The position numbers and the translations under genes were made by a program. Shown one piece after another: positions 1,345 through 43,306 of a DNA stretch of 64,000 nucleotides (positions are counted from its first letter, which is position 1; each line of letters starts with the position of its first letter). The stretch spans positions 8,747,375 through 8,811,374 of the forward strand of contig CAIIXF020000005.1 in NCBI GenBank assembly GCA_903813345.2. Direction: 5' to 3'. The notes beneath the pieces were generated by a model. It saw nothing but the letters and a program-made list of their open reading frames with translations, was not told the DNA's origin and did not search any database. The stretch is from Owenia fusiformis. Its lineage: Eukaryota > Annelida > Polychaeta > Sabellida > Oweniidae.

Positions 1345-1643
1345 ACATTTCTTAATTTAACACCAAACAAACATTACTTAATTTAACACCAACCAAACAT
1401 TTCTTAATTTAACACCAAACAAACATTTCTTAATTTAACACCAAACAAACATTTCTTAATTTAACACCAACCAAACATTTCTTAATTCAACACCAAACAA
1501 AAATTTCTTAATTTAACACCAAACAAATATTTCTTAATTTAACACCAAACAAACATTTCTTAATTTAACACCAAACAAACATTTCTTAATTTAACACCAA
1601 ACAAACATTTCTTAATGTATCACCAAACAAATATTTCTTAATT
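1345..1643 (+). repeat. 26 bp tandem array, about 11.5 copies
   Basis: The unit ACATTTCTTAATTTAACACC plus AAACAA repeats with few substitutions (AAACAA/CAACCAA, TTTAAC/TTCAAC). It ends about 45 bp before the splice acceptor of the first visible CLCA exon. Confidence 0.92.
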
Positions 1644-1688
1644 CTATTTATGAAGGACAGTGTATGTACTGTTATTGTCTTGGTTTAG

Positions 1689-4600: not shown

Positions 4601-7600
4601 GGAAGGTGATACAACAGATGCCACCCTTATCCTTATGACTGATGGTGTGGAGAACCAGCAACCGACAATTAGTGAGCTGCTTAGTCAGGGAAGGTTCCAG
4701 AACAAAGGGGTCCGCATCAATGCCATCGCCTACAGTGACCAGGCTGATATCGACCTTGAACGACTGGTGGAGGAAACTGGTAAATGGAAACGAATAAGAA
4801 AGCGAGAGAAACTTAAAGAAAGGACCGCGGGTTGTTTTTAGAATAAATCGGGGGAGTTTTTGAGAAATTATTGGCGTACATAAAACTTATTTTAAACAGC
4901 ATTTGTATTATTCAAATGCGTTCGTAATCAATGATTCCCAGCCCTCTGAAATTTGAAAAATAAGAATACATGGGTATTAATCCATAGATAATCCTCGAAA
5001 ATTAGAAATATTGTTTGGATTATATGGTGCAATATTATAGTCAGTAAAATGTTTTAAAGTGTATTGATGTTTTTAGATGAAAAACACAACCGAAATGCAT
5101 GAAAAAACGATTCATTTTACAAACAACTCGTGGTCCTTTATCCGTTATCCATATTAAGCCAGCAATCCATTTTATGACTGAACAATACGCTGGTAAAGTA
5201 GTATGTTGGTTGTATAGCCTATAACATTTTAAAGTTTATATTTTCTTCATTTCAAATTTAATTTAAAAAAAACATAATGTATAGGGCCTTCGGGGAATCG
5301 CTGAATAGCTATTTGTGTCACAATTCTTGACTAAACATTTTGAGTTGTTGTTTTTCAGATGGGATGTTTTACTACTACTCTGAGGAACAGACCTCAGTCG
5401 CATTGGACGATGCATTTGCTAGATCTGTAATGGAGACACGAACTTGTGCCGCAGAAGGGGAACCAATTGAGGTAGGGATGGACTCTTTCATTTTGGCTAT
5501 TATACCTCTGCCCATACATAAATGTTTTATCCTCACTTTGGGCCAAATATGAGACATCTTGGCCATGCATATTTTATATTTAACGGCGTTTAAATGTTAT
5601 AGTCCTGATTTGCATTTTTTATTTAGTTACCTAACTTATATTTCTTCGTGGCCAGTAAGAGTAATATAGAAGGGATCTTTAATCTTTTGAGAACCATGAT
5701 ATGTTGGACATCGCAATATGCATATGTTATAACTTGTCTCGTTCTAGCTTCATAGTTGCAAAGAACTAGTGATGGACGGCCTTGACCCAAAGATGAATGG
5801 CGTCGGTATTGACGAGACCGTTGGGGAGAAAACCTCTTTCATTTTCTCATATTCTGTTGCAGATTCTATTGAGGTAAGCAAATCCATATGCAAATATAAG
5901 CCTATACCTTAAAACAATTCACGTCTCATAAAAGTTACATTAGCCCTTGTTGGGTTCTGTAACCATTTTTGGTATTTTCCCGTTAGCACTTGCGTTTATA
6001 GCCTTGCCCAAGTCGGTCTCTTTTACTTATCTTGATTTCTATTATGGTAATAATTCAAGATCAGATTAGTAAAAAAATACCGACTTTGGCAAGGCTATTG
6101 CGTTTACATATTTACCGTATTCATACTCCGAAAGTGCATAAAGGCACTTGATAATTGCAATTGTAATGAAAGAATGAATATGTTCATCCTATGTGATGAA
6201 GAACACGTACAATACATGTGTTATAAGATTTGTTCATCAAAACTCACCATTTATATAATGTAGGTGGAGGTAATGGGTCCAAATGGTGAAGTTTTTGACA
6301 AAACAAGTCCTTATTACCAAGATGACAAGGAATTCAAGATCATAACGTTTACCTTTCCGCGTACAGATGTAAGTTTTTTAACTTTTTATCAGCTTTCTCA
6401 AAATGAACCGGTGAAATAAAATGAAAAGACTATTAATTTTGTGGACGCTAACGATAAGTAGTTTTAAGGAGATAAGATTAAGATTGGTCTAAATGTGGTC
6501 AATTGATTCAAAGATCCATAATTCGTTTCCTTCAGCCTGGTATTTGGATCTGGAGGATCACTCGGTTAGACGGTGGTGTTCACTTTATCGGAGTTAATGT
6601 CAAATCTCACGCAGCACCAAACATCGAGGCAGTGACCGCAATAGCTTGGATGAACGACGTCCAACTGACATTCCCGCGGACAGGGATTATCTACGCTGAT
6701 GTAAGGCAAGGCTATGCACCAGTAATCAGAGCAAAGGTTGTCGCAACTGTTGAGCGACCAGAAGGTGACCCTGTTGATGTGCTGCTGTACGATACAGGAG
6801 TAGGTAGGTAAAGATTTGTGCTTTGCACAGATTATATATATTTGTGCTTTGTCATAGATTGCTTACAGCAAATGAAACAATGAGTGATTACAAGTTTTAT
6901 CAACAAGCAGCGATATTTGAAAATAAGAAACGAGCAATCTAAACAGCAATAAATCAAACCCCTGTAACAAACAATCAATTATACAAGATAAACACGACTA
7001 AATCACAGTGTCATTGAAATACCACAAGATACAATCAAAACAATACATAATCAAATGTCTCACATTATTTTCTGGATAAAACATAAGGTACGGTTTTATA
7101 TTCTTCTTATCAGGTGGCGACACAACAGCAGACGATGGGATCTATTCGGCTTATTTCACGCAGTACACTGTAGATGGAAGATACTCTATCTATGTGGAGG
7201 TGTCAAATCCTGATGGCAATGCGGTCATTAAAGCTGCAGGAACAACTAGTGGAGGAGCGTACAGTCTATGGCAAAGTAAGAAAAAATTATGACTAGTTTC
7301 TTTGACTATGATAATAGCAAATAAAAAAGACTTTGATACATGCCTTGAAATACTGTATACACACTTTCGAGAAAGAATAATGTTTGAGTGATATCGATTT
7401 AATGAACAAATTAGCAAAACAACTGCATCAATTTCAAGATTGTGTAATATTCCATTAGTTTCATATTTTAGATTTCACGACGAGTAGCGTAGAGAACCCG
7501 GTTCCTTATCTCAACCGCCATAGTTCTGCCGGTGCCATAAGCGTTCACGATGTGATGGATATAGATATGATGCCGCCATCTAGGGTCACCGACCTGAGAG

Positions 7601-9820
7601 TAATGGCCCATTCGGAAGAACATGGCACCGTAACGCTGCAGTGGACCGAAACGGGCGACGACTATGACTATGGAACGGGTAAGATCATTTGAGCGATGGT
7701 CGAACATTTTAGTTTTGCATTTTATGCTTTCATGAATGATATCAAGTTAAAAATAAAAACTGAGACCATTATGTTTTTTAGTAGGCTATCCTTCTCAAAA
7801 GAGAAAACAAACGTTTACAATCCATTTAAGGTTTACCAACATTGACATTTTCTTTCTTTCAGTGACTGCTTTTACAATTTACATGCACGAGGATTTCGAT
7901 CAGTTACGAGACAATCCGAAAGAGGGCACACCTATCACAATGGCATACGTTGTTGACGGGCACTTAAATTCATTAGCTGCTTCACAGAAACATAGAATAA
8001 CTATCAAGACCCCCAGGAGTGGCTCGGATGCAGTGTATGCATTTGTAATGAGATCATGGGATGAGGCACTTAACTACAGTCCCTACTCAAATTATGTTAC
8101 TGTGCTGATGGAAGGATCTACAAATATAATCGTCACACAAGAACCTAACCCAAGCACAGCTGAGCGCGCTCCAGAAAAGTTTACATGGCCAACAGAAAAA
8201 CCAAGTACAAGGGCAGCAGAAATTCCCACGGTATCGAAATTAACATCTCTAGTTCCCGAGGAAATTCCAGTTGAAAAAGCAACCTCAACGCCAAGTAAAC
8301 CCACGATGTTCCCAAAAAGTACCCAAGTGCCTCCTGATGAGATTACCAATAAACCCAATGAAACTCCCATTACACCATCGTCTTCAGAGAGATCCAAAAG
8401 ACCGCCTGACCATACGTTGCTACCGACAATTAGAGAGCACCCAAAGAGCACAAAATTGGTGAGAGAAACAACAGATGCTTTGAAAACTACCATTGGAGAG
8501 CAACGTCGTAGCACGAAGATGCCTCGAGAATCGACTGTAGTACAACGATCTACTCTTGGAACTCACAGGACAAGCAAACAGAATGATGCTATTGATGTAA
8601 AAACGTCAACTTTACAAACTGACAACGAAAACGCCCAGAGTACAACGCCACATTATTCTCATACAAATGATCCAAACACTGTTATTGGCGTGAGGTCAAC
8701 AATACAAGACGACAACGGAAGAGAGAGAAGCTCTACACGAAGATATTCTCGTACGAATGATCCAAACGATATAATTGGTGTAAAGTCGACATCACAAGAC
8801 GACAATGGAAGAGAGAGAAGCACTACACGAAGATATTCTGGTACGAATGATCCAAACGATATAATTGGAGTGAAGTCAACAACTTCACAGTACGGCAATG
8901 GAGGAGAGCGAAGCACTACACGACGATATTCTGGTACGAATGATCCAAACGATATAATTGGAGTGAAGTCAACAACTTCACAGTACGCCAATGGAAGAGA
9001 GAGAAGCTCTACACGAAGATATTCTGGAACGAATGATCCAAACGATATAATTGGAGTGAAGTCAACAACTTCACAGTACGGCAATGGAGGAGAGCGAAGC
9101 ACTACACGACGATATTCTGGTACGAATGATCCAAACGATATAATTGGTGTAAAGTCGACATCAAAAGACGACAATGGAAGAGATCAAAGAACCACAAGAC
9201 GATACACTGGTACACTTGATACAAGTGACGTGATCAGCGCTGAATCGACAACTCCAGAAATTAACAACGAAGTGGACGAAAGTAGTACTCGAAAACATGC
9301 TGTAACAAAATCGCCCATCAGTAGAAGAACAACTACGTTGGTGAAAGGCAGCGAAGATAGTGACGAGTTTCCACTAGATAGAAGAACAACGGAACCAACA
9401 GATGGTACTCATGGCAAGAAAACAACTATATCGACGGACAATGAACAAACCAAACAAACAACTAGAGATAATCCAGCTACAAAGATACAAACTGATGAGC
9501 CAAGCAGGAGAACTACCACTTTAGTAATCAATAATGATCGCGGTGACAAGAGAACAACGACGTCGAAAGAACAACGCAGGACAACTGGTTCGGCTGGTGA
9601 AACGAACAGAGAGACAACACCAATAACCCGAGATAATGAACAGCACCAGAGCGATTCAAATCCTAGCTCCAATCAACTTGACGAACCAATGTTAATCAGT
9701 TCCCTGGTCGGGGCATTGGCTGGCAGTATAATTGGAACATTGTTGGTTGCTATTCTCGTGATAGCTTGCCTAGCATTTTCAAAGAGACGTGGTGAAAATA
9801 AGGATTATAGCAAAATCTAA
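1689..9820 (+). CDS. CLCA-family protein (calcium-activated chloride channel regulator-like), 5' partial
   Basis: Twelve exons join in frame: 1689-1832, 2137-2282, 3383-3667, 4012-4236, 4593-4779, 5359-5471, 5748-5873, 6264-6368, 6536-6803, 7114-7275, 7472-7678, 7863-9820, giving 1307 residues to the TAA. The N-terminus lies upstream of the window. The first exon carries HEFAHIRYGVFDEYGE, the CLCA zinc-protease signature (HExxH plus a downstream Glu). The exon 3/4 join gives the VWA domain start with MIDAS residues DVSQS, and LILMTDGVEN follows in exon 5. Exon 11 has the family's VTDL...LQWTETGDDYDYGT fibronectin-like segment. The last exon ends in a hydrophobic helix (roughly LVGALAGSIIGTLLVAILVI) followed by basic residues and a short tail, so a type I membrane protein is expected. 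Known CLCAs are about 900 residues, self-cleaving, and modulate chloride currents and mucus; function here is inferred. The last exon adds a long Ser/Thr/Arg-rich stalk not usual in the family. Confidence 0.93.
3714..3857 (+). repeat. Dispersed repeat copy with GTGAACACC motifs
   Basis: It begins GTAAAACCTGTCTTAGTGAA and has three close GTGAACACCT motifs. Related copies lie at 42707-42897 and 63677-63828, where the far end is the inverted TTCACTGT...AGGTTTTACT. This copy appears to have lost or degraded its right end. It lies in a CLCA intron. Confidence 0.6.
5998..6101. mobile_element. Short foldback MITE in a CLCA intron
   Basis: TATAGCCTTGCCCAAGTCGG at the left is matched by ACCGACTTTGGCAAGGCTAT at the right as an inverted repeat, with CTTTTACTTA/TTAGTAAAA also pairing. 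About 104 bp, no ORF. Confidence 0.7.
8640..9285 (+). repeat. Coding minisatellite: seven 30-31-residue repeats in the CLCA stalk
   Basis: Inside the last CLCA exon a 90-93 bp unit is repeated seven times. The protein core is RYSGTNDPNDIIGVKST, followed by a variable Q/D/N-rich part and RSTTR or RSSTR. Units 3 and 5 are almost identical and unit 4 differs slightly, which suggests a two-unit duplication; the first and last units are diverged. The region is rich in Ser, Thr and Asn, as in mucin-like O-glycosylated stalks. Confidence 0.9.
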
Positions 9821-10028
9821 CTCTAGACAATGCTTGCCTGCTGATTCACAACATAGATATATACGCAACACAACATATTCACAACATTAGGATATATATT
9901 TAATCATCAGTTATTATAATGATTCGATTACGAATCTACTTTACTTTGGACTGTTGAGATCCATTAAATTCCAAATGAACCGTTTGATTCATATCCTATT
10001 GTTCCTATTCTTATTTTTATCAAATTCG

Positions 10029-10034
10029 AATAAA
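10029..10034 (+). other. Probable CLCA polyadenylation signal
   Basis: AATAAA about 210 bp after the CLCA stop codon, the first canonical hexamer downstream. It would give a short 3' UTR. Confidence 0.45.
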
Positions 10035-10845
10035 ATATTGATAATTTCAAAAGATGATTTCCAACTATTAAATGTGTGCACAATATGAATATTTAGGAAT
10101 TGTGAAAAGTCGAGCTTCTCTTCGTATAAGTCATTCTCTTATGCAATAGAGAGTGGCTTTGTGTATCAGAGGGAATGGAAGAAATAATTTAGGTTTTCAT
10201 AAGGATTACACTATTTTATTGCCTGTACGATAAAGTTCAGGTTCACATTTCTGGTGACCTTGTTCGTGGACATACAGGGATTAGTTCTACTCTTAGCAGA
10301 ATAATATTTACTTGTTCGATTGTGAAGAAAGGTATGAGGTTGTGATTATTTCCCTGGGAACACCAATTGAGAATTGGACAATACAATTTCCCTTAAAACG
10401 TTTAACTTAACTCCTAGATTCGGAAACTCGAAGAGAGGTGCAATCATTATAACTGGCCGGGGTTCGCCGTCTGTAAGAAATGGTAGGTGGTGACATTTTG
10501 CATGTTTATGCCATGTCGAAAAAAGATCATGGCAGAAATTCCCTCAATTACATATAAATCTTTCTGAGAAAAAACCGTTAATCATTCAACTTAAAAAATA
10601 CATGTGCAAAAGCATACGATTCTAGTACCAGATCTGCGATTAGGTCATCTGGGCATGTTAGGTAAATTGAATGTTCATTGACAACCATTTTGCTCTTCTT
10701 ATTGCGATATTTTTCACTGATTGTCTGTTCCGTGTGATATTGTACTGTTCTGTGATTGCTGAATTTTTTCTGGGTTGAATGACGCACAATCCCCTCCCTC
10801 CAAAAAATTGAATGTCTAACTTTTTCACACGCCGCTCGACCTTAA

Positions 10846-10903
10846 GCTAAGTTCACACCAACGGCGCTTTGTTGGCGCTTTAAAGCGGCGTGCAAAGTGG
10901 CAA
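10846..10903. mobile_element. Single arm of the GCTAAGTTCACACC MITE family
   Basis: GCTAAGTTCACACCAACGGC followed by GCTTTGTTGGCGCTTTAAAG matches the left arm of the complete 80 bp palindrome at 17512-17591. The matching right end is not seen nearby. Confidence 0.6.
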
Positions 10904-11305
10904 ATTCTTTCTTGGCCCACCCTAGAACAGGACCCGGGACCCATGCCCCCCCCCCCCATGGATCCGCCAGTCCACGTGACAACTTTAATGAAATCACTTT
11001 GAGTGAGAATCGGACATATCAGGTTCACGTTCGGACATTTGACGCACATTCAAACTACGAACTAAATTTCTCTCGTTCGTATTATTGCTACAGAATTTTA
11101 CGTCGCCAAATATTTCTCTTCGAACATTTGAATAAGATAAATATTTTGAATGTTTCACTCTTATCATCCTAGAATCAAGTAATTAAAAGTACAAATATAT
11201 ACCTAAGACCACTACTGCAACAAAAAATCTTAAATAAATGACATTTCTAATGCCCCATGTAACCACACTTTGAAGTTTCTAGGGGGAAGTTCAAAAAGTT
11301 TGAAA

Positions 11306-14300
11306 ATGGAAGAAAAATCAAAATTTGATCAACTTCCAACGCATCTTTTGATCCAAAGGCAGCTAGAAGATGTTATACGGACCCAGCAGACTGCGTGTGA
11401 TGCATTGAAAGAAACAGTAAGTCAATATTAAATCGATATAGTAACTAGTTGACTAGATATCAAAGAATTTAGGCTATCTCACAGTCTTGAACTCTTTAAG
11501 TTGGTGTCAGCAGGGTGTCTACCTTTGACTGAAAGTTCTTTGATTTGACTTTTAAATCAAATCATAAACTCTGCCGATCCAAGATGAGACATGTTCAAAT
11601 ACAGTCAATATAACACCAGGATATAAGAGAGGGGGCAGTGAGGTCGCAGTGAGGTCGCTTTTGTCACTTTAAAATTTCCACAGATATCAGAATTTTTATT
11701 AGGAAATACCTCCTACTACTTTTTTCAAGGCCTGACTGCGTCGCTAACATGCTAAATATAAGAGTTAGCTGACGTTTGGGAGTCTGACTTACCTTCTAAA
11801 GGTAAGAACCCGAATCTTAATGAAACCATATCACCTTTGTTCCGTCAACCATGGAGCATTTGCCACAACATCCAAGAGGTAAATCATGGATCGAGAAAAT
11901 GAATGATTTCCTTGTAAGTTCCGGAAGTTTCAATACAAAAAATTACCGAAAATATGTGAAAACCGAATATTTGTTCGTTGTTTTCACGATTTACAGGTTC
12001 GTTTGTTCTTCAATGTTTTGGTCTAAATTATAAAGCATCACCAACAGGTCTTACTCTATTAATCGACTAATACAGCAGACGGGTCATATTTCTACGTAGC
12101 ATTTCATTCAGACCAATAGTGGGAGTGTAGATCACGCAGTTTCGTTCGTTGCGTACTTCACTTGAAATTGGTAATTTTAAATATTGACTACTTCACTTAG
12201 CTTGGCGGATGTAGAACATTGCTTAATATTCTTTTAATTTTCACACCAGACATGCTTGGTTGACACGTCAACAAAGTAAAGTTCAAGGGTCAATGCGTTA
12301 TTTCGTGATAACTACAACGCCTTCCCGGAAGTCAACATTGATGAAAAATGAAAAAGTCGGAAAAGCATTTACGCTAATTTCTATCAAATGCTATGCTATG
12401 CATCATCATCGACGCAACAAAGGTGATATGGTTTCATTAAGATTCGGGTTCTAACCTTTAGAAGGTAAGTCAGACTCCCAAACGTCAGCTAACTCTTATA
12501 TTTAGCATGTTAGCGACGCAGTCAGGCCTTGAAAAAAGTAGTAAACAAAGGGAAAGTGAGGTATTAGCTTAGGCTTCTTGAAAAAATTGATATAATTTCA
12601 TTTCCAGTTTTTGAAAGTCTGATATCTCTACTATCATATATACTGATGCTCCCTATGAAACCTGCACCATTGTTTCCTGTGGTCTTTTTATAACAAAATT
12701 AACTTCATTCTTAGTCATAATTGAGCCTCGTGATAGTGAATAAACAGCAAAATGTTCGAAAAATTTACTTGTTCCACTAGAATTGAGATGACATACTGTC
12801 CTGATTGGTCCAGATATGTTAACATAGATTAAAACATCACAACGACATGTTATATTCAAAAACTAACTGGTGAAAATTTGCGCAAACGGAGGTGGTACGC
12901 AATAGACGCAATTCCCTCCATGCGCAGTGATAGATCTCGAGGGTTACACTCTCCCGAGAAATTACGATAGGCAGTGTCTATTTCAAAACACTCGTCAGTC
13001 AAATAAATGTACAAAATTGTCACCTGCAAGCATTTATTTGTCACATTTGTTCGTTTTTATATATCCCACAGTCCCATTTAGTCACATTATTAGAGGCCAT
13101 GTCACCTTATCACAAACCCTTGGAGCTATAAGGCCAGGGTGCATGTTCGGAATTTTGTTGCATTCCACAATTGAGGCACATGTTATTTTTAAACAGTAAT
13201 TACTCCTAGTTACATAGTCTACATCTTCCAGTTTTTCACAAAGAGTGCACTTGTGCACCTAGAAGACTGGTGAGAAGATTGGAAAATGTATAAAAAGCGA
13301 GAAAATTGAGTGAAAAGGTTTTCTGAAAAATTTCTGAATTTTTTCACTGAATTTACTTGTTTTTTATTATACATTTTATAAAAAACATTCTTCTCTACAT
13401 CCTTTTCTAGGCACATTAGCGCACTGGTTGCGCAAAAGTGAGAGATGTAGACATTGTGGGGAAGGAGTGCTTCAAATTTGAAAAATAACATGTGACCCTA
13501 TTGAGGGTTGCAGCAAAATTCCGAACATGCACCCTGACCATAACACTGTCTGATACAACAGTGACAAAGAACATTTATCATTATGTTAAATAATGTAACA
13601 TTGTCTGGTAAAACAGTGACAATGTCAAATAATGTAACTTTGTATGGTTCAACTGTGACAATGTAAAACTTACATGTAGTAATGCTTCCTGTCACAACAT
13701 CACAACGTCACGGTTGTTGACATTGCCCCAGTTGTACCAGACAGGACTCGTGCATTTGATCATATATGTCCAAGACTTATTTATTGATTATAAATAATAT
13801 AGAAATACCTCTGCAGACTACAGAAAAAGGAAGATTAGGTGCATATGTTTTTTCCATATAATGTTGCAATGGTGTTCCTTCAATTGCTTATTCCTTAGAT
13901 ATTTGTGATTTTGGTTGTAACATTTTGTCATCAAAATCTAAATACTGATTCTTAATAGCAAGCACCCCCTCCCCCAGATCTACCTGAACATTAAGTAAGG
14001 TGATACATGTAGCATGCAGTTAGATGTTTTTACTTATGAATTGTATTGTACATTTGCAGAGTGTCATAAAGGAAGAGATGGTACCAAGGAGTGCATATGA
14101 TGATGTTCTGAGAGAGCTTGAGGTACTTTCATTATAATGATTAACAGATTAGAAGAACAGATTATGGAAGTGTAACAAACCAAATACAGACTTGAAACAG
14201 AGTGATATGAATTCAATGCCCTTATTGGAATCGAGCACATGACCCTCAGGTTCAAAGTCTGATGCTCTACACTGAGCCAAATGGCTTGAGCAGCCATAGC

Positions 14301-15885
14301 TGAGCTGTAGATAACTCAGTGCTATTTAGGGTTGTTACAGTTCTTTTAGATAATTATTTAGGTTATTTTGAGCAAATAACTCAGCCTGATTGAATGAGTT
14401 TTCCGATCTCTTATGTTTAAGATCCACTAATATGATTTTATAAAGAAATTGGAGATGTATATTGTTATCCAAAATATTCTACAAACCTTGTATAAGTATA
14501 CATATCAAATACAAATGATGATATGAAAATGATGAACTATTGTTGATTCCTCTTAAAAACAACTTTCTTGACTGTAGTACTTTTATTTCAATCTTAGTCA
14601 GATCCATATAAATTATGCCTTGCTCAAACATTGACATTAGAAATAATTTTATTTCAAGACAGAGAAGATGGCCCATGCTAACACCAATGCACGACTCATG
14701 GAGACTCAGGATAGACTGGAGTTTGCCTTGGGTGAAATAGAAATCCTTTCTAAACAACTTGAGAGAGAAAAGCAACAATTCTCAAAAACGTAAGCTGTTT
14801 ACTGTTATTTTTCTAAGATGAATGTCCTCTGTGTATGGCGATGAGGGTTTCCCAGTCTAGCTGTAGCTTAAGTTTATACATATGTAAGTGTCTACTAGAT
14901 AACCCACTGAATGTGAGATCAAATGCTGTTACATTGACTGGTCAATAATATATTGAAAATATTTGTCACAGCTTTGCTTTGATTGTTCTTTACAGGGATG
15001 CTAGATAGGCTATTTGATTCTAAATTGTTTTACCAATCTCAGTTGTAACTGCTCAGATCCTTTAAAATTTCCAATTTTGCCAAGTTCGCCAAAATCATGA
15101 AAATAAATAGCTCTAAATTGAGCAGAGTAACTGTGTACATGTACATAATATTAGAGCTTCATTGTCTTTGCAGATTCGGCCTGTTGAAGACAAAGGCGTT
15201 AAAAGAAACAACTAAAAACATAAAGCTAGTCAACAAATGCACAGGTACTGTATCCCCCACCTTTTCCATTATTCTTTATTTTAAATGAGAAATGATTTTA
15301 AATAGTCCTGTCACCATTGCCCCAAGATGCATTTCTCCCCCAGACAATCAGTGACTGATGTCCCATTATAATTGCTTATATAATATCTTACATAAGAAGA
15401 TTTATCTTGAGAACAACTTGTGCGTACAGTAGTGATGATTTATTGAGTTAATTGACAATACAACCAACTGTCAGAATTGAACTCAGTTTGATCAAAGGGA
15501 ATTCTCAGGTGATCCTGGACTGGAGGACACAGGAAATTAAATCTCCTGATGCAAAAATATCAAGGGATACTCTAATTGTGCTTCTTTTAGACTGCCTTTT
15601 TAAAGTTCCAAAATTAGGCTATATGAAAATAATCTTTTCATGAATTTTGCAGTTATTGAACAACAATGTGAAAAACAGGAGGATGTCATAACTGATAAAC
15701 AAGACGAACTCCAAAAACTTTCAAAAAAATTAAAGGACCAAGAAGAAATCCACAAAAAAACAATAAATGAGTTAGAAGTCCAAAGACAACAAGAACTTTA
15801 TATATCAAGGATGCTAGAAGGATCAAATGACTCTAAAACATCAAAACGAAAAAATAATTTAAAGGCAAAACCAAAGAATAGCTAG
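11306..15885 (+). CDS. SPATA24: Spermatogenesis-associated protein 24 homologue (coiled coil)
   Basis: Five coding exons, 11306-11416, 14060-14122, 14659-14789, 15174-15244 and 15653-15885, join in frame to 202 residues, close to the roughly 205 of the vertebrate protein. The diagnostic segment is LEFALGEIEILSKQLEREK in exon 3, which parallels the SPATA24 core; exon 5 has the family's QRQQELYISRMLE near the C-terminus, followed by a Lys-rich tail. Most of the chain is Glu/Lys/Gln-rich heptads, so a coiled coil is expected. The start is the ATG opening MEEKSKFDQL, which leads straight into the conserved first exon. Intron 1 is long (2.6 kb) and hosts two transposon-like elements. Vertebrate SPATA24 is testis-enriched and has been linked to nuclear and transcriptional partners; its role in this animal is unknown. 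Confidence 0.85.
11716..12541. mobile_element. Non-autonomous TIR transposon, 826 bp, TA target site
   Basis: Near-perfect terminal inverted repeats of about 126 bp (11716-11841 and 12416-12541) begin CTACTTTTTTCAAGGCCTGA. Each end is flanked by TA (11714-11715 and 12542-12543), as in Tc1/mariner-type insertion. The 570 bp interior has no transposase ORF. It lies in SPATA24 intron 1. Confidence 0.85.
13135..13536. mobile_element. Diverged foldback element, about 400 bp
   Basis: CAGGGTGCATGTTCGGAATT at 13135 is mirrored by the complement ending GAACATGCACCCTG at 13536. Homology between the arms extends over roughly 130 bp with indels, including ACATGTTATTTTT and GTAGACAT/GTCTACAT blocks. No target-site duplication is obvious. 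Confidence 0.75.
13543..13672 (+). repeat. Degenerate tandem repeat of ACAGTGACAATGT type
   Basis: Three imperfect copies of a unit containing TTGTCTGGTAAAACAGTGAC and AAATAATGTAAC, about 50-60 bp each, directly after the foldback element. Confidence 0.55.
14216..14292 (-). other. tRNA-like sequence, probably a SINE head
   Basis: Read on the minus strand, TGGCTCAGTGTAGAGC resembles a D arm with A box, then TCAGACTTTGAACCTGA resembles an anticodon arm (TTG in the anticodon position), then TGCTCGATTCC resembles a B box. The acceptor stem does not pair well, so a functional tRNA is unlikely. It lies in SPATA24 intron 2. Confidence 0.4.
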
Positions 15886-22200: not shown

Positions 22201-25200
22201 CATTGTTTGCCACTTTTGTTTCACTAAACTGTCTTTCTAGACGCTCATTTCTCTCATTAATTAGGTCATCCGCTTCCATGAAATCAAATAAATTTTTCCC
22301 ATCTTGGATGAGTGGAGATTTTGTAAAATCATCTGGATCAGAAATTGTTTTATTTGTTGGAGTTCCTAAGCCTAAATCCGGGGGTAGAGCAACTCGTAAT
22401 GGGGACACAGCATAGTGATTCTCTTCAGATTTTTTGGTGCTGACTAAATTATTGCCTTTCTTCAAATCATCAGATTTTCCGCCTTTTTCCGGGGGTTCGG
22501 GTAAGGGAGAAGTTGGGTCACGAGGATTTTTCCGATTATCCTGTTGGCTTAGTCCCATTGGTAATCTTTCAAGGTCATAATCATTTGTCACTATCTGGAA
22601 ACAGAATAAACAATATTTACTCAACTTTAAAATGGGAAGATCCTCATAAAACATAAGTGCTGCTCAAGATCTTTAACACAGACCCCCTTCCCTGCTGGTT
22701 AAATATTACTAAAGAAACAACATGAATGTACTTGAAAGCCCGTGGTTGAAGTAACAATAATCCCCACTCTCATATTATAACACTTACCTTTATTATACCC
22801 ATTTCTTTTAATTTAGCATTCAGTGCAGCAATCCACTCTTCCATTTCCATCCTGAAAATAAACCCATTTCATAACTTTAAAATGGATACATGCTATTTTG
22901 TTGTTTATAACTTAAAAAGGTAAAACTTTAAAACAACTCAAACTAATTAATTTCAACCTTAAATTACAACAGTATTTTTGAATTCCTGTATGGAGTAATT
23001 TATAAAACCTCATATTTTACACTAAATTCACAAAACATTGGTACATACATGTATATGAGAATATACTTAAAAGGCTCTCTTTTATACTCGGATGCACAAT
23101 ATATTTCACAGCAATAACATTATTTTTGCTGATATTTTGACATCTTACATAAACTATAGCCTTCTCTTTTGAAGACATGTAGGTTGATTTCGGTTATTTG
23201 AAAAAGTCCTTGATCTTCACCTAATCTAATGTACTAGGCCCTGACTCCTAATGTAACTATAGCCTGGCAGGCCAGCTTATGTCAAGGGGGGTTCACTTGT
23301 CAGAAAAATTCAAGGGGGTTCACTTTGACAATTTAGCCCAAAATCACATCACTGCATGCTTTTGAAAGAATCTTTGGCTAAGGGGGCTAGCAATCAATAT
23401 TCCTAATAGGCCTAACAGGAATATCTCATGAAACATAAACTGCCTTATTCACTATGATATCTAGGCAGTGATGAACATATTTATTTATTTATTTATTTAT
23501 TCATTTATTTAAGTGTCACCTATCTAAGATAGCCAGCCCTACCTGGGCTTATGAGACACATTTTACATAAGTTACATAATAATAATACATAATAATTTTA
23601 ACAATACAAATATAAAATTAGTGCATTTCAGCTCAACATCATTATTGATTTTGATTTTTAAATATAACTCTTTTCCTTATATAGAATATTTTTTGCAAAT
23701 ACTTTCCAAAGCATTTAATATATTTTTTTTTCAAAGATATCTTTAAAGGAATTGTCTTTGATTTCTTGAAGGAAAGATTTTCGAGCTTCTGAATAATACG
23801 AACACTCAAATACAAAATGCATTTCATTTTCAATTTCATTTGAGTTACAAATTTGGCACTGTCTTTGGTTTACTGGAGTTTTATAGAGCAGGAATTGAAG
23901 CATATCTATGAACGCCCATAAATGCACGTATGGCACGTATATGGCACGTGGAACATATATAAACCTTGCCTTGAGCTTTAAATTAGAATTTTCCTAAAAG
24001 AAAATTCTTGGTATTAAGAATAGTATGTCAAACAAACTTGTATTTCTTATAACAAATTAACGTAAACGTTAAAATTAGTAAGATCCTGTCTAGTAAGTGG
24101 GTTCTCAGTAATAAGGAACAAATTAATGATAACCTCACATTAAAAGTTGAGTTTTAAATGTCAATGATGCTAGAAAAGATAAGATTAACAAGAAAACAAA
24201 TGACTCATATTAACTTACCGTATTCTCTGTAATAGGCACATATATTCCAATAAATGCACACCCGACTTTTCCATGAAATGCTCCACTTTTACAGAGGAAA
24301 ATTATGAAATACCCTATTATAGCCCATATATATTCATCTTTCAAAAATCACCAGGAATTTTGTCATTTGAGACATCTCCTGAGAATTTGGGAGCCGCACT
24401 GCGCGTTTATTAGAGAGAGTATGGTATGTGCTTTAACTCTAAATGCTGCCTTTTTCACAAAATAGATATTGTTTTCTAATTTTAAGACATACAATGTGAG
24501 GCACAATTGGGAACAAGGCATTAACATGACAAAATGTCACCACCTAGTTGCTCACAATATTATGAGTTCAAACTTAAGTCAGATTTGAATTTCTGAGAAC
24601 TTGTAAAGTCAAATTTGAACTTCTGAAAAGATGTAGATGTAGATGATTTTGAAAAAAAAATTTGGTCAATTTGAAGCAAGTTGAAAAAAGACCTTTTTGA
24701 CCTTTTTTGACTTTGAGAAGGTCATTGAAGGTCAAATGTCAAATCTTAAGTCAAATCTAAAGTCAGATTTGAATTTCTGAGAACACGTAGATGATTTTGA
24801 AATTTTTTTTAGTCAATTTGAAGCAAGTTAAAAACAGACCTTTTTGACCTTTTTTGACCTTGAGAAGGTCATTGAAGGTCAAATGTCACATCTAAAGTCA
24901 GATTTGAATTTCTGAGAACATGTAGATGATTTTGAAAAAAAAATTTAGTCAATTTGAAGCAAGTTGAAAAAAGACCTTTTTGACCTTTTTTGACTTTGAG
25001 AAGGTCATTGAAGGTCAAATGTCAAATCTTAAGTCAAATCTAAAGTCAGATTTGAATTTCTGAGAACACGTAGATGATTTTGAAAAAAAAATTTAGTCAA
25101 TTTGAAGCAAGTTGAAAACAGACCTTTTTGACCTTTTTTGACCTTGAGAAGGTCAAATGTCAAATCTTAAGTCAGATTTGAATTTCTGAGAACATGTAGA

Positions 25201-27619
25201 TGATTTTGAAAAAAAAATTTAGTCAATTTGAAGCAAGTTGAAAACAGACCTTTTTGACCTTTTTTGACCTTGAGAAGGTCATTGAAGGTCAAATGTCAAA
25301 TCTAAAGTCAGATTTGAATTTCTGAGAACATGTAGATGATTTTGAAAAAAAAATTTAGTCAATTTGAAGCAAGTTGAAAAAAGACCTTTTTGACCTTTTT
25401 TGACTTTGAGAAGGTCATTGAAGGTCAAATGTCAAATCTTAAGTCAAATCTAAAGTCAGATTTGAATTTCTGAGAACACGTAGATGATTTTGAAAATTTT
25501 TTTTAGTCAATTTGAAGCAAGTTGAAAACAGACCTTTTTGACCTTTTTTGACCTTGAGAAGGTCATTGAAGGTCTAATGTCAAATCTTAAGTCAGATTTG
25601 AATTTCTGAGAACACGTAGATGATTTTGAAAATTTTTTTTAGTCAATTTGAAGCAAGTTGAAAACAGACCTTTTTGACCTTTTTTGACCTTGAGAAGGTC
25701 ATTGAAGGTCAAATGTCAAATCTAAAGTCAGATTTGAAGGTCAAATGTCAAATCTAAAGTCAGATTTGAATTTCTGAGAACATGTAGATGATTTTGAAAA
25801 TTTTTTTTAGTCAATTTGAAGCAAGTTGAAAACAGACCTTTTTGACCTTTTTTGACCTTGAGAAGGTCATTGAAGGTCAAATGTCAAATCTTAAGTCAGA
25901 TTTGAATTTCTGAGAACACATATCTGATTTTGAAAAAAAAATGTAGTCAATTTGAAGCAAGTTGAAAACAGACCTTTTTGACCTTTTTTGACCTTGAGAA
26001 GGTCATTGAAGGTCAAATGTCAAATCTAAAGTCAGATTTGAAGGTCAAATGTCAAATCTAAAGTCAGATTTGAATTTCTGAGAACCGCCGGACGCCAACC
26101 GCCGTCGCAAAAAAAACGGAGACCATAACAATATGTCACCACTTTTGGTGGTGACATAATAAATATGGACTGAACTTGATAAATTCTTATAGCTTCCATA
26201 TTTGAGATATGTCCAATATTTTGTAGTTTCGCAGAATGTTATCATGTGATATGGTTTAAAAACCGAACTCGAAAAATATCTGCAAGGTATTTTATGACAT
26301 GATGAGATGTTAATTGCAGTATAACATCAAGGGGAGGTCATAGCAACCTAACATTTAAACAACTAATTGAGTATTGTTCAGATTCAAGACATAGCTGATT
26401 ATGCAGGAATCGACTGATTGATTTTAAATATCCATATAATTGATTTGAAAATTGCTTAGGCCTAAGTGAGACTCTTAGATAAGTGCATTTAAAGGTTGGC
26501 TGTGTTTAATCAGAGACATGTCTCTGGTTTGAGAGATACATTGAATCAAAATACAAGCCACAGACTTGAGAAGAATCAAAGTCCATGTTATAATTAAGAA
26601 AACAAGGAAGAGTTAATAGATAAACTCACACTAGTACTTAATTTCTCATTTGAACTCCCTAAACAATTGTTTTCACATGAGCCTATTTTGCTTCCTACTT
26701 TTTAATTAAGTTATTTCAACTACATTAGCTATTGTTCTAACACAAGTTACATGAGCTACCAACTTTTCTTTTCTACTCAAGCTACAGTGTACCTAATCAG
26801 GCCCATAGCCAGGATTTTGCAAAGGGGGTTCACTTTTGGAAAAATAACAGCGGGGGTTCACTTTTGACAATTTTGGTCCAAAAATGGCCAAAATCACTTA
26901 AAAAGTGCTCAGCATGGTGAAAAACTGCATGATTTTGAAAGAATTTTTGGCCAGGGAGGTTTGCCCGAACCCATTGCTACGGGCCTGCTAATGTTTTCAC
27001 TCAAGCTACATTAACTACATACTATTCTCACACATCTTTTACCTACTACTAATTTAACATTTTAACTACACTAATTATTCTTACTCAAGCTACTTGCTAG
27101 TACTACAGTTTTATTACTCACCTAGAATTTGCAACTAGATGAAGTACCCGATCTTCTAAAGTTATTGTAAATGTGTTCTGGTGTTTAAGCTCCATCAGAT
27201 TTTGCAGTATGTGTTGACAATTTGCAAGAAGGATTGTGTTGATAGGCTCGTGCTTCAGAACACTATCCTCATTTTCATAGTATTCCAAATAAGGAAGATA
27301 GTCTGTTTTCACGCAAAAAACGAACCAGCGTTTTTCCCATTTCTGAAAATGAAATTCATAAACTGAGGTTTCATTACAAAGCTCAATCTGGTAAATTCAT
27401 TAAAGGATAGTTTAAACAATACATAGGATTTATGATGGAGTGGTTCCTACATGTATATAGTTATCACATAAAAGAGTACTCCCAGTACCATACCTTGAAT
27501 GATGCCCCAAACTTATTTGCATTTGGCGCCTTCTTCAGGTATCCCTGTTTGATAACTGTAGCCTGAGAAGTTTCCATGTTTATGGCACTATGTCGTGTTA
27601 CACTCTTACGATACGACAT
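19282..27619 (-). CDS. PH domain and tandem PDZ-like adaptor protein
   Basis: Seven coding exons on the minus strand: 27494-27619, 27122-27342, 22788-22851, 21561-22594, 20511-20760, 19971-20114, 19282-19407. They join in frame to 654 residues. The N-terminus is a complete PH domain (about residues 22-140): IKQGYLKKAP opens it, KKWEKRWFVF follows, and MEEWIAALNAKLKEMG is the C-terminal helix. Exon 4 is a low-complexity acidic and proline-rich linker with PPVPLRRSP and a PPPYSEEPPPLPPYSP stretch, candidate SH3 and WW ligands. The end of exon 4 to exon 7 gives two PDZ-like modules: one around HIGDRIVSIGGHVI, another starting QSLGIKREGG. The C-terminus is KNYKDFLVQ. The domain layout suggests a membrane-recruited scaffold. 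I do not recognise a named orthologue. The start ATG is supported by an in-frame stop in the predicted upstream exon. Confidence 0.82.
23262..23405. repeat. Dispersed GGGGTTCACTT repeat, degraded copy
   Basis: It shares GGGGGTTCACTTTGACAATT and CATGCTTTTGAAAGAAT with copies at 26799-26986 and 34312-34512 (the last in opposite orientation). It lies in intron 3 of the PH-PDZ gene's 22852-27121 interval. Confidence 0.6.
23481..23940 (-). mobile_element. Non-LTR retrotransposon 3' fragment (LINE remnant)
   Basis: On the minus strand, 23936-23715 encodes a 73-residue open frame with CQICNSNEIENEMHFVFEC, the Cys/His cluster typical of the C-terminus of LINE ORF2 proteins, followed by SEARKSFLQEI. 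An untranslated stretch follows, ending in a tail of about six AAAT units at 23481-23510. The 5' part with endonuclease and reverse transcriptase is absent, as expected for a 5'-truncated insertion. Confidence 0.7.
24511..26165 (+). repeat. Dispersed GTCACCACC repeat split by a satellite array
   Basis: The left part (GAACAAGGCATTAACATGAC...GTCACCACCTA, 24511-24546) and the right part (GCCGGACGCCAACCGCC...GTCACCAC...GTGGTGACATAATAA, about 26085-26165) match the two ends of the repeat at 61384-61525 and 16463-16622. The interior is replaced by the 24.56-26.08 kb tandem array. Confidence 0.65.
24556..26084 (+). repeat. Satellite-like tandem array, about ten units of 130-170 bp
   Basis: Ten GATGATTTTGAAA landmarks (the last as CTGATTTTGAAA) mark the units, at about 24637, 24789, 24924, 25072, 25200, 25333, 25483, 25619, 25789 and 25926. 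Each unit contains TGACCTTTTTTGACCT, AGAAGGTCATTGAAGGTCA and GTCAGATTTGAATTTCTGAG. Length varies because the GTCAAATCTAAAGTCAGATT segment is duplicated in some units. It lies in an intron of the PH-PDZ gene. Confidence 0.92.
26799..26986. repeat. Dispersed repeat with AGGCCC(G)TAGC inverted ends, complete copy
   Basis: It runs from CAGGCCCATAGCCAGG to GCTACGGGCCTG, an inverted pair about 188 bp apart, with GGGGGTTCACTTTTGG and TGATTTTGAAAGAATTTTTG inside. It matches 34312-34512 in reverse orientation. No ORF; a MITE-like family. Confidence 0.7.
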
Positions 27620-37600: not shown

Positions 37601-40600
37601 TTGCAAGAAAATGGGGATATGAAGTAAAGGGAATCCCTAAAAACCAGGCAAAGATAATATTTGCTGAGGGGAACTTCTGGGGTAGAACACTTGCTGCAAT
37701 CTCAACCTCCACTGACCCAAGCAGTTATGAGGGGTAAGAACTCATACCAGGAAGTGGTCTTCCCAGCAAGAAAGAAAGGTGGCATTAGACTACATGAGAT
37801 TGACCACTTGAGATTTGTGAAAATGAGAATTTTTGCAAGTTGGGAAATAAATCTAGGGAGAGCACGATTCTGGTTTACCTCATTTTTCAACTAACCTCAA
37901 AAAACGAATAGCAGAAATAACATATGTACATGTACATTGATACATTTTTGAAAATAGTAATCAATAATGATGATATTTTCTTGATTTTTCTTCTGTGTTC
38001 AGTGGAGTTAACAGTCATGTACTCATATAGTAGCAATCAATTCGAGACTACTCGGGCAACTCAACAAACCTAAAAAGGTTGTTTCATCAGCCAATCAGAC
38101 TAGGGGGAACAGGTGTTAACGCTCAAACCCACCAGAGGTAACATTCATACACACATCCACATGCACAATTAGCTCGACTAGTTACTCAAAAATATGGACT
38201 TTGAAGTATTGGTCAAAAAGCAAATCAATATGGATATTTATTGTATGATCTGTAAAATGAAGCCCTCTGATTGGTCAGTTCTTGTGCTGTACCAATCTGT
38301 ATTGCTGCTACTGAGATTGTTCCCTTTGATCATCTCCGTCGCAATACAGAAAATATTGATACGGAAGGGACAATCTCAGTAGCAATACAGAGGATCACAC
38401 GATAAAAACGTTATTGAATGATTTGAAGTGCAATACAGGATATATTCTGTCTCAATATTCTGTATTGGCACTCTACTTCGTCTCGTTCCAATACAGAATT
38501 TCTCGACCAGAATATATCCTGTATTGCACTTCAAATCATTCAATAACTTATAATCTTGCGATATATCAAAGGCACTTGCATATTCAGTGAATGTTATTGA
38601 TGGGACAGTTAATATTTTTCCATTGACTCCTGATAAAGCTTGATTAGTGAAATCTGTTGTATATTTTCATATGCCTGTAAATTAATTAGCTTTGACGTTT
38701 CATGTATAAAACATGCTAGTCTAAACAAATCTAGACTGGATTTTACTTTCCATGTACTGTAGTTGTTACAGTGTGATTCAAAATTACTGCTACTTTTTAG
38801 GTTTTATCCTTTTTGGGTCACCCTGTACATACATTTTCACCTTTTACCTTAATTTTTGCAATTTATAATTTGGTCACCATTATATTATTTGCTCGTGTAT
38901 GTATATAGTACAACATTTTCATCTATGTTTCATCAAGTTAAAAAATATTTTATCAGTACTATTTTGTTTTAGATTTGGACCATTTATGCCTGGGTATGAG
39001 GTGATCCCATATAATGATCTCAATGCTCTTGAGGTAAGCATGAATGGTGCATAAACCAATTGAAACTAGATTTAATTTTGGTTTAGCTTGAAAATCTTAT
39101 TTTGGTGGCAAAAGGCAAAAATGAGAAGAAAAATTAAATCAGTCTGGATATCACTGATGATACAAATGATTGAAGTAGAATCTTAAAATCCCAAAATGAC
39201 TTATTTAATATTTTTGCCTTTTTCTTTTCATCCTGATATTGTTATATTATAAGACAAAATTAAACTATCAAATGAAGGTATTGATGCAAGCCCAGAAATT
39301 GATGACTTCTTAAGTATACAGAAAATGTATTTATGAGTAATATCATAGACCGATACCTCATATCATATTCTTTAGTATATTCTGATTGTGAATCAAGATA
39401 AATATGATTAAGAGGGTTGTGGTTAAAATGTTATTATATGGTTGTCTTGGTATTTCAGAAAGCTTGCCAGGACCCCAACGTCTGTGGATTCATGGTGGAA
39501 CCCATACAAGGGGAGGCAGGAGTAGTTGTACCACATGATGGCTACCTTAAAGGCATCAGGGAGATTTGTGACACGCACAATGTACTATGGATGGCCGATG
39601 AAGTACAAACTGGACTCTGCAGAACTGGAAGGTGAGTTGATAATGAATGAGTGATACAACATTGTAAAATATCACAACAAGTCTCTTCCCTTATGAAATG
39701 TGGGGGGGGGCTAAGTCAACACTCTTAAATCTGAAGGTTTTCACAAATTAATGTTAAGTTACACTGTGAAGACCTAGAGAGACCATTGATTTGTATCTCT
39801 GTAAATGCGTCAGTGTAAAGGAAATTCGTACTTTTCATAAAGGTATGATAGCCACTTAGAGCTTAAGTGCTTAGTTTCTTAAGCCCAGCTTACACAAAAA
39901 ATGGGCTGCATGTCCCTTTCGAGTCCAATGGTTCCTTAGATTTCATTTTCCCCAATGAGATTCCACAGGCTCTTGGGTGTATGTTCGCTTTGATTATAGT
40001 TGAATCCATGGTTTGTATTTTCAGGTGGCTTGCTGTTGACCATGAGGATGTAAGACCTGATATTGTCATTCTGGGGAAAGCCTTATCAGGAGGAGTTCTT
40101 CCAGTGAGTTACTTGCTAATTTGGGAAGGATTCACATGATGTAAATCACCACATTTTTTGGGTCTGGCTACTTAAAGATTATTTTAGAAGTTTTTCTATA
40201 AATCTTGCCATTCCACGAAAAAAAATTTACATATTGTTGATGAACTTTTGAGTGGCCATGTATTCTGGCAGCCATAATGAAAGATTTTTGATAAATATTG
40301 TCGTAATTTCAGGAAAACCGCTTGTAAGGCAACTATCTTTTAATGTCTTAACTGATTTCAATTTTTTTGTATTAAGGTGTCTGCTATTCTTGCTGATGAT
40401 GAGATAATGCTTACAATAAAACCTGGTGAACATGGCTCAACATATGGTGGTAACCCATTGGCCTGTAAAGTAGCCATAGCAGCACTTGAGGTATAGTAAC
40501 ATATATTTACATGCACTTTGAAATCATCAATGGCTCAACATATGGTGGTAACCCATTGGCCTGTAAAGTAGCTATAGCAGCACTTGAGGTATAGTAACAT

Positions 40601-43306
40601 ATATTTACATGCACTTTGAAATCATCAATGGCTCAACATATGGTGGTAACCCATTGGCCTGTAAAGTAGCCATAGCAGCGCTTGAGGTATAGTAAAATGT
40701 TTACATGCACTTTCAAATCATCAATGGCTCAACATATGGTGGTAACCCATTGGCCTGTAAAGGAGCCATAGCAGCGCTTGAGGTATAGTAACATATGTTT
40801 ACATGTACAGTAATCATCAATGGCTCAACATATGGTGGTAGCCCATTGGCCTGTAAAGTAGCCATAGCAGCACTTGAGGTATAGTAAAATGTTTACATGT
40901 ACTTTGAAATCATCAATGGCTCAACATATGGTGGTAACCCATTGGCCTGTAAAGTAGCCATAGCAGCGCTTGAGGTATAGTAACATATGTTTACATGCAC
41001 TTTGAAATCATCAATGGCTCAACATATGGTGGTAACCCATTGGCCTGTAAAGTAGCCATAGCAGCACTTGAGGTATAGTAACATATGTTTACATGTACAG
41101 TAATCATCAATGGCTCAACATATGGTGGTAGCCCATTGGCCTGTAAAGTAGCCATAGCAGCACTTGAGGTATAGTAAAATGTTTACATGTACTTTGAAAT
41201 CATCAATGGCTCAACATATGGTGGTAGCCCATTGGCCTGTAAAGTAGCCATAGCAGCACTTGAGGTATAGTAAAATGTTTACATGTACTTTGAAATCATC
41301 AATGGCTCAACATATGGTGGTAACCCATTGGCTTGTAAAGTAGCCATAGCAGCACTTGAGGTATAGTAACATATGTTTACATGCACTTTGAAATCATCAA
41401 TGGCTCAACATATGGTGGTAACCCATTGGCCTGTAAAGTAGCCATAGCAGCGCTTGAGGTATAGTAACATATGTTTACATGTACAGTAATCATCAATGGC
41501 TCAACATATGGTGGTAGCCCATTGGCCTGTAAAGTAGCCATAGCAGCACTTGAGGTATAGTAACATATGTTTACATGCACTTTGAAATCATCAATGGCTC
41601 AACATATGGTGGTAACCCATTGGCCTGTAAAGTAGCCATAGCAGCGCTTGAGGTATAGTAACATATGTTTACATGCACTTTGAAATCATCAATGGCTCAA
41701 CATATGGTGGTAACCCATTGGCTTGTAAAGTAGCCATAGCAGCGCTTGAGGTATAGTAACATATGTTTACATGCACTTTGAAATCATCAATGGCTCAACA
41801 TATGGTGGTAACCCATTGGCCTGTAAAGTAGCCATAGCAGCACTTGAGGTATAGTAACATATGTTTACATGCACTTTGAAATCATCAATGGCTCAACATA
41901 TGGTGGCAACCCATTGACCTGTAAAGTAGCCATAGCAGCGCTTGAGGTATAGTAACATATGTTTACATGCACTTTGAAATCATCAATGGCTCAACATATG
42001 GTGGTAACCCATTGGCCTGTAAAGTAGCCATAGCAGCACTTGAGGTACCGTAACACATGTCTTCATGCACTTTGAAATCATGCTCTTCAAGCTACCTTAT
42101 GCCTGAGTCACATCTGCTCTGATTCACCGGCTGGCACCTGGCCGTTTGAGTATTTTGTTCAGAATTGTATTCAGTTTTGAACAAAATACTCAAACTCCTG
42201 GGTGCCGGCTGTTGAATTGGAGCAAGTGCGACTCGGGCATCAAAGAGGTATGGACAGTTAGTGGGGCAGTTTTTCTACCCTTTGATAATTTTTACATTGG
42301 GATATGTGATTCACATTTATTTATCGGTATATAAACTCTTCTGTTAAGGTTATCATTTCAATGACAAAGTTAATGCTTTGCTGGGTGGTGAAAAATGTTG
42401 ATTTAGAGGCTGTAATATTGATTTATTCAACAAATTCAAGAAATAAATTATAGCTATACTCTTGTATATTCTAGTGCATGTTGGAAGAGAAGATGGCTGA
42501 AAATGCTCAATACCTTGGTGAGATTCTACGAAATGAACTCTCAAAGTTGCCAAAAGATGTTGTGTCCATTGTGCGCGGGAAGGGCCTTCTTAATGCGATT
42601 GTCATCAATGAAAGTAAGTTATAACTTTCACCACTTATTTTCCAATAGGAGTTCCTTTTATGACCTTCTTCTAGTATTCAACTTACATTTCAAACCCAAT
42701 TATGTACAGTAAAATCTGTCTTAGTGAACACCACTCTCTTGTGAACACCTGTGTGTAATGAACACCTCTTCTCTGCACATACTCCACTTAGACTAACTGA
42801 GTTTTGTTTAGAATTGCCTCTGTAGTGAACACCTACTTATCGTGAACTCATTTTTGTGGCTCCATTTGTGTTCACTGTACACAGGTTTTACTATATTTAC
42901 AAAATAATCCTACAATATAGTGTAAAAAAACATGCCATTAAGATTATAGAAATTAGATCTGAATGATTAATACGGTAAATGTATGTAGATATATGTCTGA
43001 AAGGCATTAATTGGACCTGATATACAAAGAAACTTCGGACAATGCTATAGTTAGGTATAAATGTAAGTAAAGAAAAATGTATTTCAAGTGCAGTAATTAA
43101 ACTCAAATAAACCCAAAGTGAATGAATGTTTCACAATTTCAGAGTTTGATGCATGGAAGGTTTGTGTTCGGCTCCAGGAGAATGGCCTGCTCGCTAAACC
43201 CACACATGGTGATATTATCCGCTTTGCACCTCCTTTAACAATGACTGAAGATCAACTGAGAGAATGCATTGAAATTATCTCACGGGTGGTTATGTCGTTC
43301 CAATGA
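31655..43306 (+). CDS. OAT: Ornithine aminotransferase, mitochondrial
   Basis: Nine coding exons, 31655-31826, 35614-35838, 37571-37733, 38973-39033, 39459-39631, 40025-40103, 40377-40490, 42475-42613 and 43143-43306, join in frame to 429 residues (human about 439). The enzyme transfers the delta-amino group of ornithine to 2-oxoglutarate, giving glutamate semialdehyde, in the mitochondrial matrix. The basic, Ser/Thr-containing N-terminus ([20 protein letters not shown]) fits an import signal. [33 protein letters not shown] and ADEVQTGL are class III aminotransferase motifs; Lys283 in ILGKALSGG is the PLP lysine. [20 protein letters not shown] and [19 protein letters not shown] are OAT-specific. 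A TGA two codons before the ATG fixes the start. A splice acceptor at 31580 implies an upstream non-coding exon. Intron 1 carries a large foldback; the intron after 40490 is full of exon-derived repeats. Confidence 0.96.
32966..33819. mobile_element. Foldback element with 420 bp near-identical arms, 5 bp target duplication
   Basis: CACCCTATGCAGACAGAGCC at 32966 is mirrored by GGCTCTGTCTGCATAGGGTG ending 33819. The two arms are almost perfect reverse complements across their whole length, with a small loop around 33390. Flanks are AAAGA on both sides (32961-32965 and 33820-33824). The same 63-residue open frame (starting MNC.TIFTI) occurs once in each arm, as expected for a palindrome. It lies in OAT intron 1. 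Confidence 0.92.
34312..34512. repeat. Dispersed repeat with AGGCCCGTAGC ends, second complete copy
   Basis: Opposite in orientation to the copy at 26799-26986, with C-runs of 14-18 bases replacing the GGGGG tracts. It contains CAAAATCATGCAGTTTTTCA and ends CTAGCTACGGGCCTG. Confidence 0.7.
35150..35540 (+). repeat. Interspersed repeat with CCATCCATCC tract and AGGTCAAGGTCA motifs
   Basis: A GTCTGTCCGTCTGTCC/CATCCATCCACCC microsatellite is followed by GTCATCAAACTTGGTACAAT and then AAGGTCAAGGTCACATTTAG. This arrangement is common in dispersed repeats of marine invertebrates; I recognise the style, not a named family. It abuts OAT exon 2. Confidence 0.5.
36690..37140. repeat. Nested inverted repeats with GATATTCGATGG motif
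   Basis: AAACCATCGAATATCACTTT at 36780 is inverted as AAAGTGATATTCGATGGTTT (twice) by 36870, and ATCCTATGGTTTTTGAAAAA near 37040 is inverted as TTTTTTCAAAACCATAGGAT near 37115-37135. ATCCCATGG and CCATGGGAT also pair across the element. OAT intron 2. Confidence 0.6.
38265..38550. repeat. Two adjacent hairpins with CAATACAG motif
   Basis: Hairpin one (38292-38393) pairs CAATCTGTATTGCTGCTACT with AGTAGCAATACAGAGG. Hairpin two (38411-38546) pairs TTATTGAATGATTTGAAGTG with CACTTCAAATCATTCAATAA. Both share GCAATACAGGATAT-type sequence. OAT intron 3. Confidence 0.7.
40433..42066 (+). repeat. Tandem array of OAT exon-7 end plus splice donor, 17 copies counting the exon
   Basis: The unit (95-99 bp) starts ATGGCTCAACATATGGTGG, covers the last 58 bases of the OAT exon that ends at 40490, then its donor GAG|gtatag and about 35 bp of intron. 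Copies start at about 40433 (the real exon), 40529, 40628, 40723, 40819, 40915, 41013, 41109, 41205, 41301, 41400, 41495, 41593, 41691, 41789, 41888 and 41986. The splice acceptor of the exon is not copied. The final copy has gtaccg at the donor. Confidence 0.97.
42707..42897. repeat. Complete copy of the GTAAAACCTGT/GTGAACACC repeat
   Basis: It begins ACAGTAAAATCTGTCTTAGT and ends GTACACAGGTTTTACTAT, an inverted pair, with several GTGAACACC motifs between. About 190 bp, no ORF; in an OAT intron. Related copies: 3714-3857 and 63677-63828. Confidence 0.65.

Follow-up and report, generated by a model that had tools for sequence, protein, structure and literature searches.

The OAT gene of the annelid Owenia fusiformis raises the question of what a long row of near-identical splice donors behind a coding exon does, and whether such a row is selected or tolerated. 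The exon concerned, exon F (40377-40490, forward strand; acceptor ttaag, donor GAG|gtatag), is phase-compatible with exons E and G and lies on contig CAIIXF020000005.1, within a window of 64,000 nucleotides. Between it and exon G (42475-42613, forward strand; acceptor ttctag), 16 further copies of its own end are found, as the initial annotation had proposed. Tandem Repeats Finder calls the array at 40432-42081 on the forward strand (period 98, 17.0 copies, 95% matches), the starts of the 17 units are spaced by 96 or 98 bases, and searching the assembly with the unit gave a list of 17 hits, none of them outside the OAT locus. An array of such length is not a chance pattern.

Each unit combines 59 bases of exon origin (40432-40490 in copy 1) with the donor and as many as 39 bases of intron; the initial annotation had counted 58 and about 35, respectively. 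Copy 1 (40432-40529, forward strand) holds the genuine exon end and donor (40490|40491). The intronic copies 2-16 (40530-41985, forward strand) share with it the donor 9-mer GAGGTATAG (GAG|gtatag) in 15 of 15 cases. Copy 17 (41986-42081, forward strand) has an exon part equal to that of copy 1, an intron part with five substitutions relative to the majority and the donor GAGGTACCG (gtaccg). With GT in all 17 copies, the anatomy of a row of extra donors after exon F is established.

The identity of the gene is well supported. Exon F matches the solved OAT chain 2byj at 32 of 37 aligned residues, and the eight OAT exons found join to 371 residues, of which 1-370 align with OAT chain 1gbn over its residues 31-402. 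All eight matches listed for the protein in the assembly are exons of this locus, in a type of search that weak copies can escape.

The consequence of using a later donor can be read directly from the frame. Transcripts were joined through donors 1, 2, 9 and 17, and translation of those using donors 2, 9 and 17 reads GAG GTA TAG, with the stop right behind ...AALEV, exactly as had been predicted. This in-frame TAG (40494-40496, forward strand) lies within the intronic bases of copy 1, and therefore the remaining later donors also lead to it. Under the exon-junction rule, mRNA carrying such a premature stop is expected to decay. These properties invite a regulatory explanation, in which the first donor has to compete with the extra ones, a copy-number-dependent share of transcripts gains the TAG and is degraded, and copy number thereby sets OAT output. 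We consider this improbable. In its favour are the immediate stop, which the MDH and zinc-finger exons described below share, and the few consensus matches of the exon F donor, 5 of 9, fewer than at any of the other six OAT donors (6-8). By U1 pairing energy, however, the same donor is not the weakest but middling (-8.0, within a range of -5.6 to -10.7), the donor of copy 17 is weaker (-5.8), and in one MDH copy the GT is gone. Predicted folding also argues against a difference in accessibility: unpaired probabilities across the 17 donors lie between 0.0007 and 0.0122, with 0.0061 for the first, and give no contrast between copy 1 and later copies that would indicate masking of the latter by RNA structure.

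A low count of consensus matches at the first donor would also fit a helping role, in which many weak downstream U1 sites help the exon to be recognised or curb premature polyadenylation, and the array does supply 16 more U1-pairing sites, 96-98 bases apart. We regard such help as very doubtful, the MDH and zinc-finger arrays being located behind GTAAGT donors that should need none, and conservation of the OAT copies not being significant.

The copies might, alternatively, act as exons of their own. According to the initial annotation the acceptor is never copied, which holds for the genuine acceptor of exon F, absent from the repeat unit, but not for acceptor-like sites, since copies 4, 7 and 11 contain a weak TACAG (40806-40810, forward strand, in copy 4; ending at 41100 in copy 7 and at 41486 in copy 11). 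Located nine bases upstream of the exon part and opening a segment with an in-frame TAA at its start, this site could create 68-base poison exons, and at -2.01 it outscores the acceptor of exon G, the weakest genuine one (-2.85 in a model built without it). The model is nevertheless built from only eight acceptors, and the three sites rank 958-960 among the 3340 AGs of the 64-kb window; a 68-base mini-exon in copies 4, 7 and 11 is unlikely by this measure. A variant of the same idea takes GAG|GTA as a ratchet site, which as an acceptor scores -4.22, about the median of window AGs. Between them, the poison-exon and ratchet versions are extremely unlikely to explain the array. The GAG|GTA of copy 2 was examined as a candidate recursive (ratchet) splice site and rejected, its score of -4.22 falling short of the pyrimidine tract and acceptor expected before such a site.

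A further acceptor-like site is found in the neighbourhood of the array. A palindromic MITE-like element of about 142 bp (42099-42240, without assigned strand) begins 17 bases past the array end and contains a TTCAG (42162) that scores above the genuine acceptor of exon G. The element has at least 60 matches in the genome, with hits on the two strands coinciding at many loci, in a search in which 40 of 872 first-look candidates were scored. Among six loci of the palindromic element, OAT included, tandem arrays are present at three, one of them of a 135-bp kind.

Whether the copies are under selection can be addressed by comparing them with one another. Strong conservation of the exon part and donor had been reported; it is real in absolute terms, but not significant when set against the remainder of the unit, as the comparison of exon- and intron-derived substitution patterns recommended by the initial annotation reveals. 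Counting substitutions only, with gap columns left out, copies 1-16 vary at 7 of the 59 exon columns and at 6 of the 39 columns in the intron part (Fisher P 0.76), as compared with 7/59 and 10/39 among all 17 copies (P 0.10). Counting gaps raises the intron figure for copies 1-16 by four and leaves the exon figure unchanged, giving 7/59 versus 10/39 as well. Shuffling of columns gives P 0.18 (copies 1-16) and P 0.07 (all 17) for the lower diversity of the exon part, and P 0.26 and 0.48, respectively, for the invariant donor 9-mer. The exon variants, four synonymous and three residue-changing, do not depart significantly from randomness (P 0.10), and the residue changes include the N of YGGN, altered in four copies. 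When the inner copies of the three donor arrays are pooled, variable columns number 13/173 in exon parts and 13/104 in intron parts (P 0.20; substitutions). Across column counts, shuffles, synonymous share and three-array pooling, no sign of selection on the decoys reaches significance at 0.05 (lowest P 0.07), although these tests leave room for mild constraint on the OAT copies.

One observation points the other way. Copy 17 shows no changes in its 59 exon bases and five in its 37 intron bases (P 0.007; post hoc), a contrast that may be explained as an array-end effect. It carries little weight against neutrality, having been noticed before it was tested and concerning an array end, where homogenisation is least. 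Comparison among the copies yields no significant selective conservation of the type expected of an NMD switch, and competition between donors as a means of setting OAT output is confronted with donors and exon parts that lack significant constraint. The proposal that the array tunes OAT output is unsupported by sequence because there is no significant excess conservation, some copies carry amino-acid changes and similar arrays occur elsewhere in the genome.

The array also retains traces of its origin. The junction ATCATCA|ATGG, which carries two extra bases, CA, between intron and exon, recurs unchanged in all 16 later copies and therefore points to a single founding duplication. Eight of 28 informative site pairs show all four combinations, and therefore sequence has been exchanged between copies; in addition, copies 5, 8 and 9 are identical, as are copies 6 and 13, so that non-adjacent copies match in the manner expected of homogenisation by exchange. 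Such shuffled variants point to unequal exchange or conversion, of which they are the usual signature. The same pattern bears on the possibility of an assembly error, with a true genome holding one copy or a very different number. The array is known from assembled sequence only; nevertheless, its copies differ by combinations of substitutions and by 2-base gaps in an ordered mosaic, and similar arrays exist at independent places, so that an error of this sort is very unlikely.

The OAT array is, in our judgement, probably a neutral minisatellite begun by accident across an exon edge, tolerated and not selected, and the initial suggestion of a neutral minisatellite that happens to include an exon edge fits the data better than tuning. 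It would have begun with one tandem duplication that placed exon base 40432 behind intron base +37, with two bases added between them, as suggested by the common junction and the end of copy 17, and unequal exchange and conversion would then have expanded it to 17 copies, in keeping with the mosaic of variants. The pre-mRNA would present 17 donors, 16 of them identical, of which the first, closing an exon of normal size together with the true acceptor, would serve functional OAT. Use of the first donor is inferred from the intact gene, and the array would be tolerated because of it; occasional use of a later donor would lead to GAG GTA TAG and probably to mRNA decay.

The neutral explanation gains from the recurrence of such arrays elsewhere in the genome. 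Sampling covered 25 pieces of 10 kb at round coordinates (250 kb), ten pieces first and fifteen more once an array in one of them, L010, had been noticed. Arrays were counted when their period was at least 40 and their copy number at least 3.5; merging five rows for L009 and two for L027, and keeping two for L019, left 13 arrays. Two of these are donor-side and supported by homology, one is probably acceptor-side and ten are of other kinds or unassigned; among the nine arrays of the fifteen pieces added later, one is donor-side.

In the first donor-side case (L030:1398-2163, G000 C12:20.0M, minus strand; 14 copies of 55 bp), the exon encodes malate dehydrogenase (MDH; E 2.5e-22 to 4wle, mitochondrial). 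Its last codons read HIETK, the donor is gtaagt, and 13 copies of the final 28 exon bases come after it, of which 12 carry gtaaat and one, copy 13, is without GT; the next exon (...QVKGYVGSDQ...) is readable in phase. In the second case, identified by homology as a C2H2 zinc-finger gene (L010:4717-5761, G000 C3:20.0M, minus strand; 9 copies of 119 bp), the exon ends in FKCQK with the donor gtaagt, eight copies of its last 86 bases follow with gtaagt, and the next exon restores CQKCSYEA. Read-through past either exon end meets an immediate stop. The probable acceptor-side counterpart (L012:3356-3597, minus strand) repeats an acceptor, together with the beginning of a CBM_14 (chitin-binding) exon, about 3.5 times, with AG lost in some copies. 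Another sampled array (L023:1153-2460) contains six 225-bp units whose consensus includes AACAG|GTTGCTAGAACCATTGGAGAG|GTATGT, possibly a micro-exon of 21 bases repeated with the unit; AG is missing from its last copy.

Since like arrays occur in two other genes, the OAT array looks like a recurring neutral repeat. Two donor-side arrays per 250 kb would correspond to about 4,000 genome-wide, an estimate that two cases can make only roughly (95% range about 480-14,400). With exon edges assumed at 0.5-1.5 per kb, the probability of finding two donor arrays among 13 by chance is 0.03-0.24, and that of three edge arrays among 13 is 0.01-0.27. Chance capture of exon edges in a minisatellite-rich genome is therefore possible, and the frequency of exon-edge arrays may lie slightly above chance.

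Repeats across exon edges are known from human genes. CBS and OAT are both pyridoxal phosphate enzymes, and the CBS repeat reportedly lies at the exon 13/intron 13 edge and yields alternative donors. This VNTR, c.1444_1467+7(16_21), has a unit of 31 bp, for which the coordinate name gives 24 exon and 7 intron bases (PMC2630376). CBS and OAT are alike in their tandem coding-exon 3′ ends with a donor, repeated 16-21 times in CBS (PMC2630376), and the OAT array shares the head-to-tail arrangement, a unit of about 10-100 bp, high identity, and an exon 3′ end with a GT donor in all 17 copies. They differ in unit length (31 bp versus 96-98 bp), and the CBS repeat is human and known to be polymorphic. 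Internal tandem repeats at exon-intron boundaries, able to alter splicing, have also been described in human segmental duplications (PMC2812944). These minisatellites span boundaries as the OAT array does, but they average four units of about 30 bp and belong to recently duplicated primate genes, whereas the OAT unit is longer, its copies are more numerous and the gene is found at one locus. On the features compared, the OAT array appears to work like these boundary repeats.

Other systems are more distant. Intron gain can proceed through tandem duplication of AGGT-containing sequence (PMC4974935), and AG|GT is likewise part of the duplicated OAT segment; unlike the process outlined there, the OAT array needs no new intron, and its GAG|GTA is poor as an acceptor. 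In CBS 844ins68, a duplicated intron 7/exon 8 junction of which one copy is strongly preferred (PMC2630376), the resemblance lies in the duplication of a splice junction with a single favoured copy, and the difference in that one intron-exon junction is duplicated there as opposed to an array of exon ends. Intronic minisatellites of C. elegans (PMC4039745) are arranged differently from the OAT array. A non-exhaustive literature search, which is no proof of absence, turned up no nearer case than CBS and the survey of segmental duplications.

The most interesting aspect of these arrays is their recurrence in one genome, with 17, 14 and 9 copies across three genes. Choice between equal donors is usually studied in engineered minigenes with two or three sites, and the downstream of two equal donors is favoured in vitro; given this preference, first-donor use at OAT needs explaining. 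Here, natural genes offer 17, 13 and 9 serial GT donors (OAT, MDH and zinc finger, respectively) at near-fixed spacing, with the OAT and zinc-finger copies matching the genuine donor, and exon-end arrays thus constitute a natural test of how the cell chooses among near-identical splice sites. If the sampled rate holds, they are common in this genome, and annotation and expression studies must allow for them. A bolder and, in our view, unlikely extension is that exon-end arrays form a large class, of hundreds to thousands by rough count, in which the first of several near-equal donors must win, so that either an unusually strong first-donor or exon-length rule operates or copy number is a widespread, fast-mutating dial of mRNA decay.

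Several other repeats were encountered in the window and the sampled pieces. Tandem repeats of 135-148 bp at 24637-26085 and in L002, L013 and L026 perhaps form one dispersed family, judged by period and look only, and 145-bp repeats at L009:1-4567 and L009:8307-9852 contain a stretch resembling part of a tRNA gene (CAGGAATCGAACC). At 7757-9817, an open frame of 687 amino acids contains in-frame, S/T-rich repeats of 93 bp (31 amino acids) at 8654-9183 and a hydrophobic stretch near its end; it looks like a mucin-like membrane protein, although its one Pfam match is sub-threshold.
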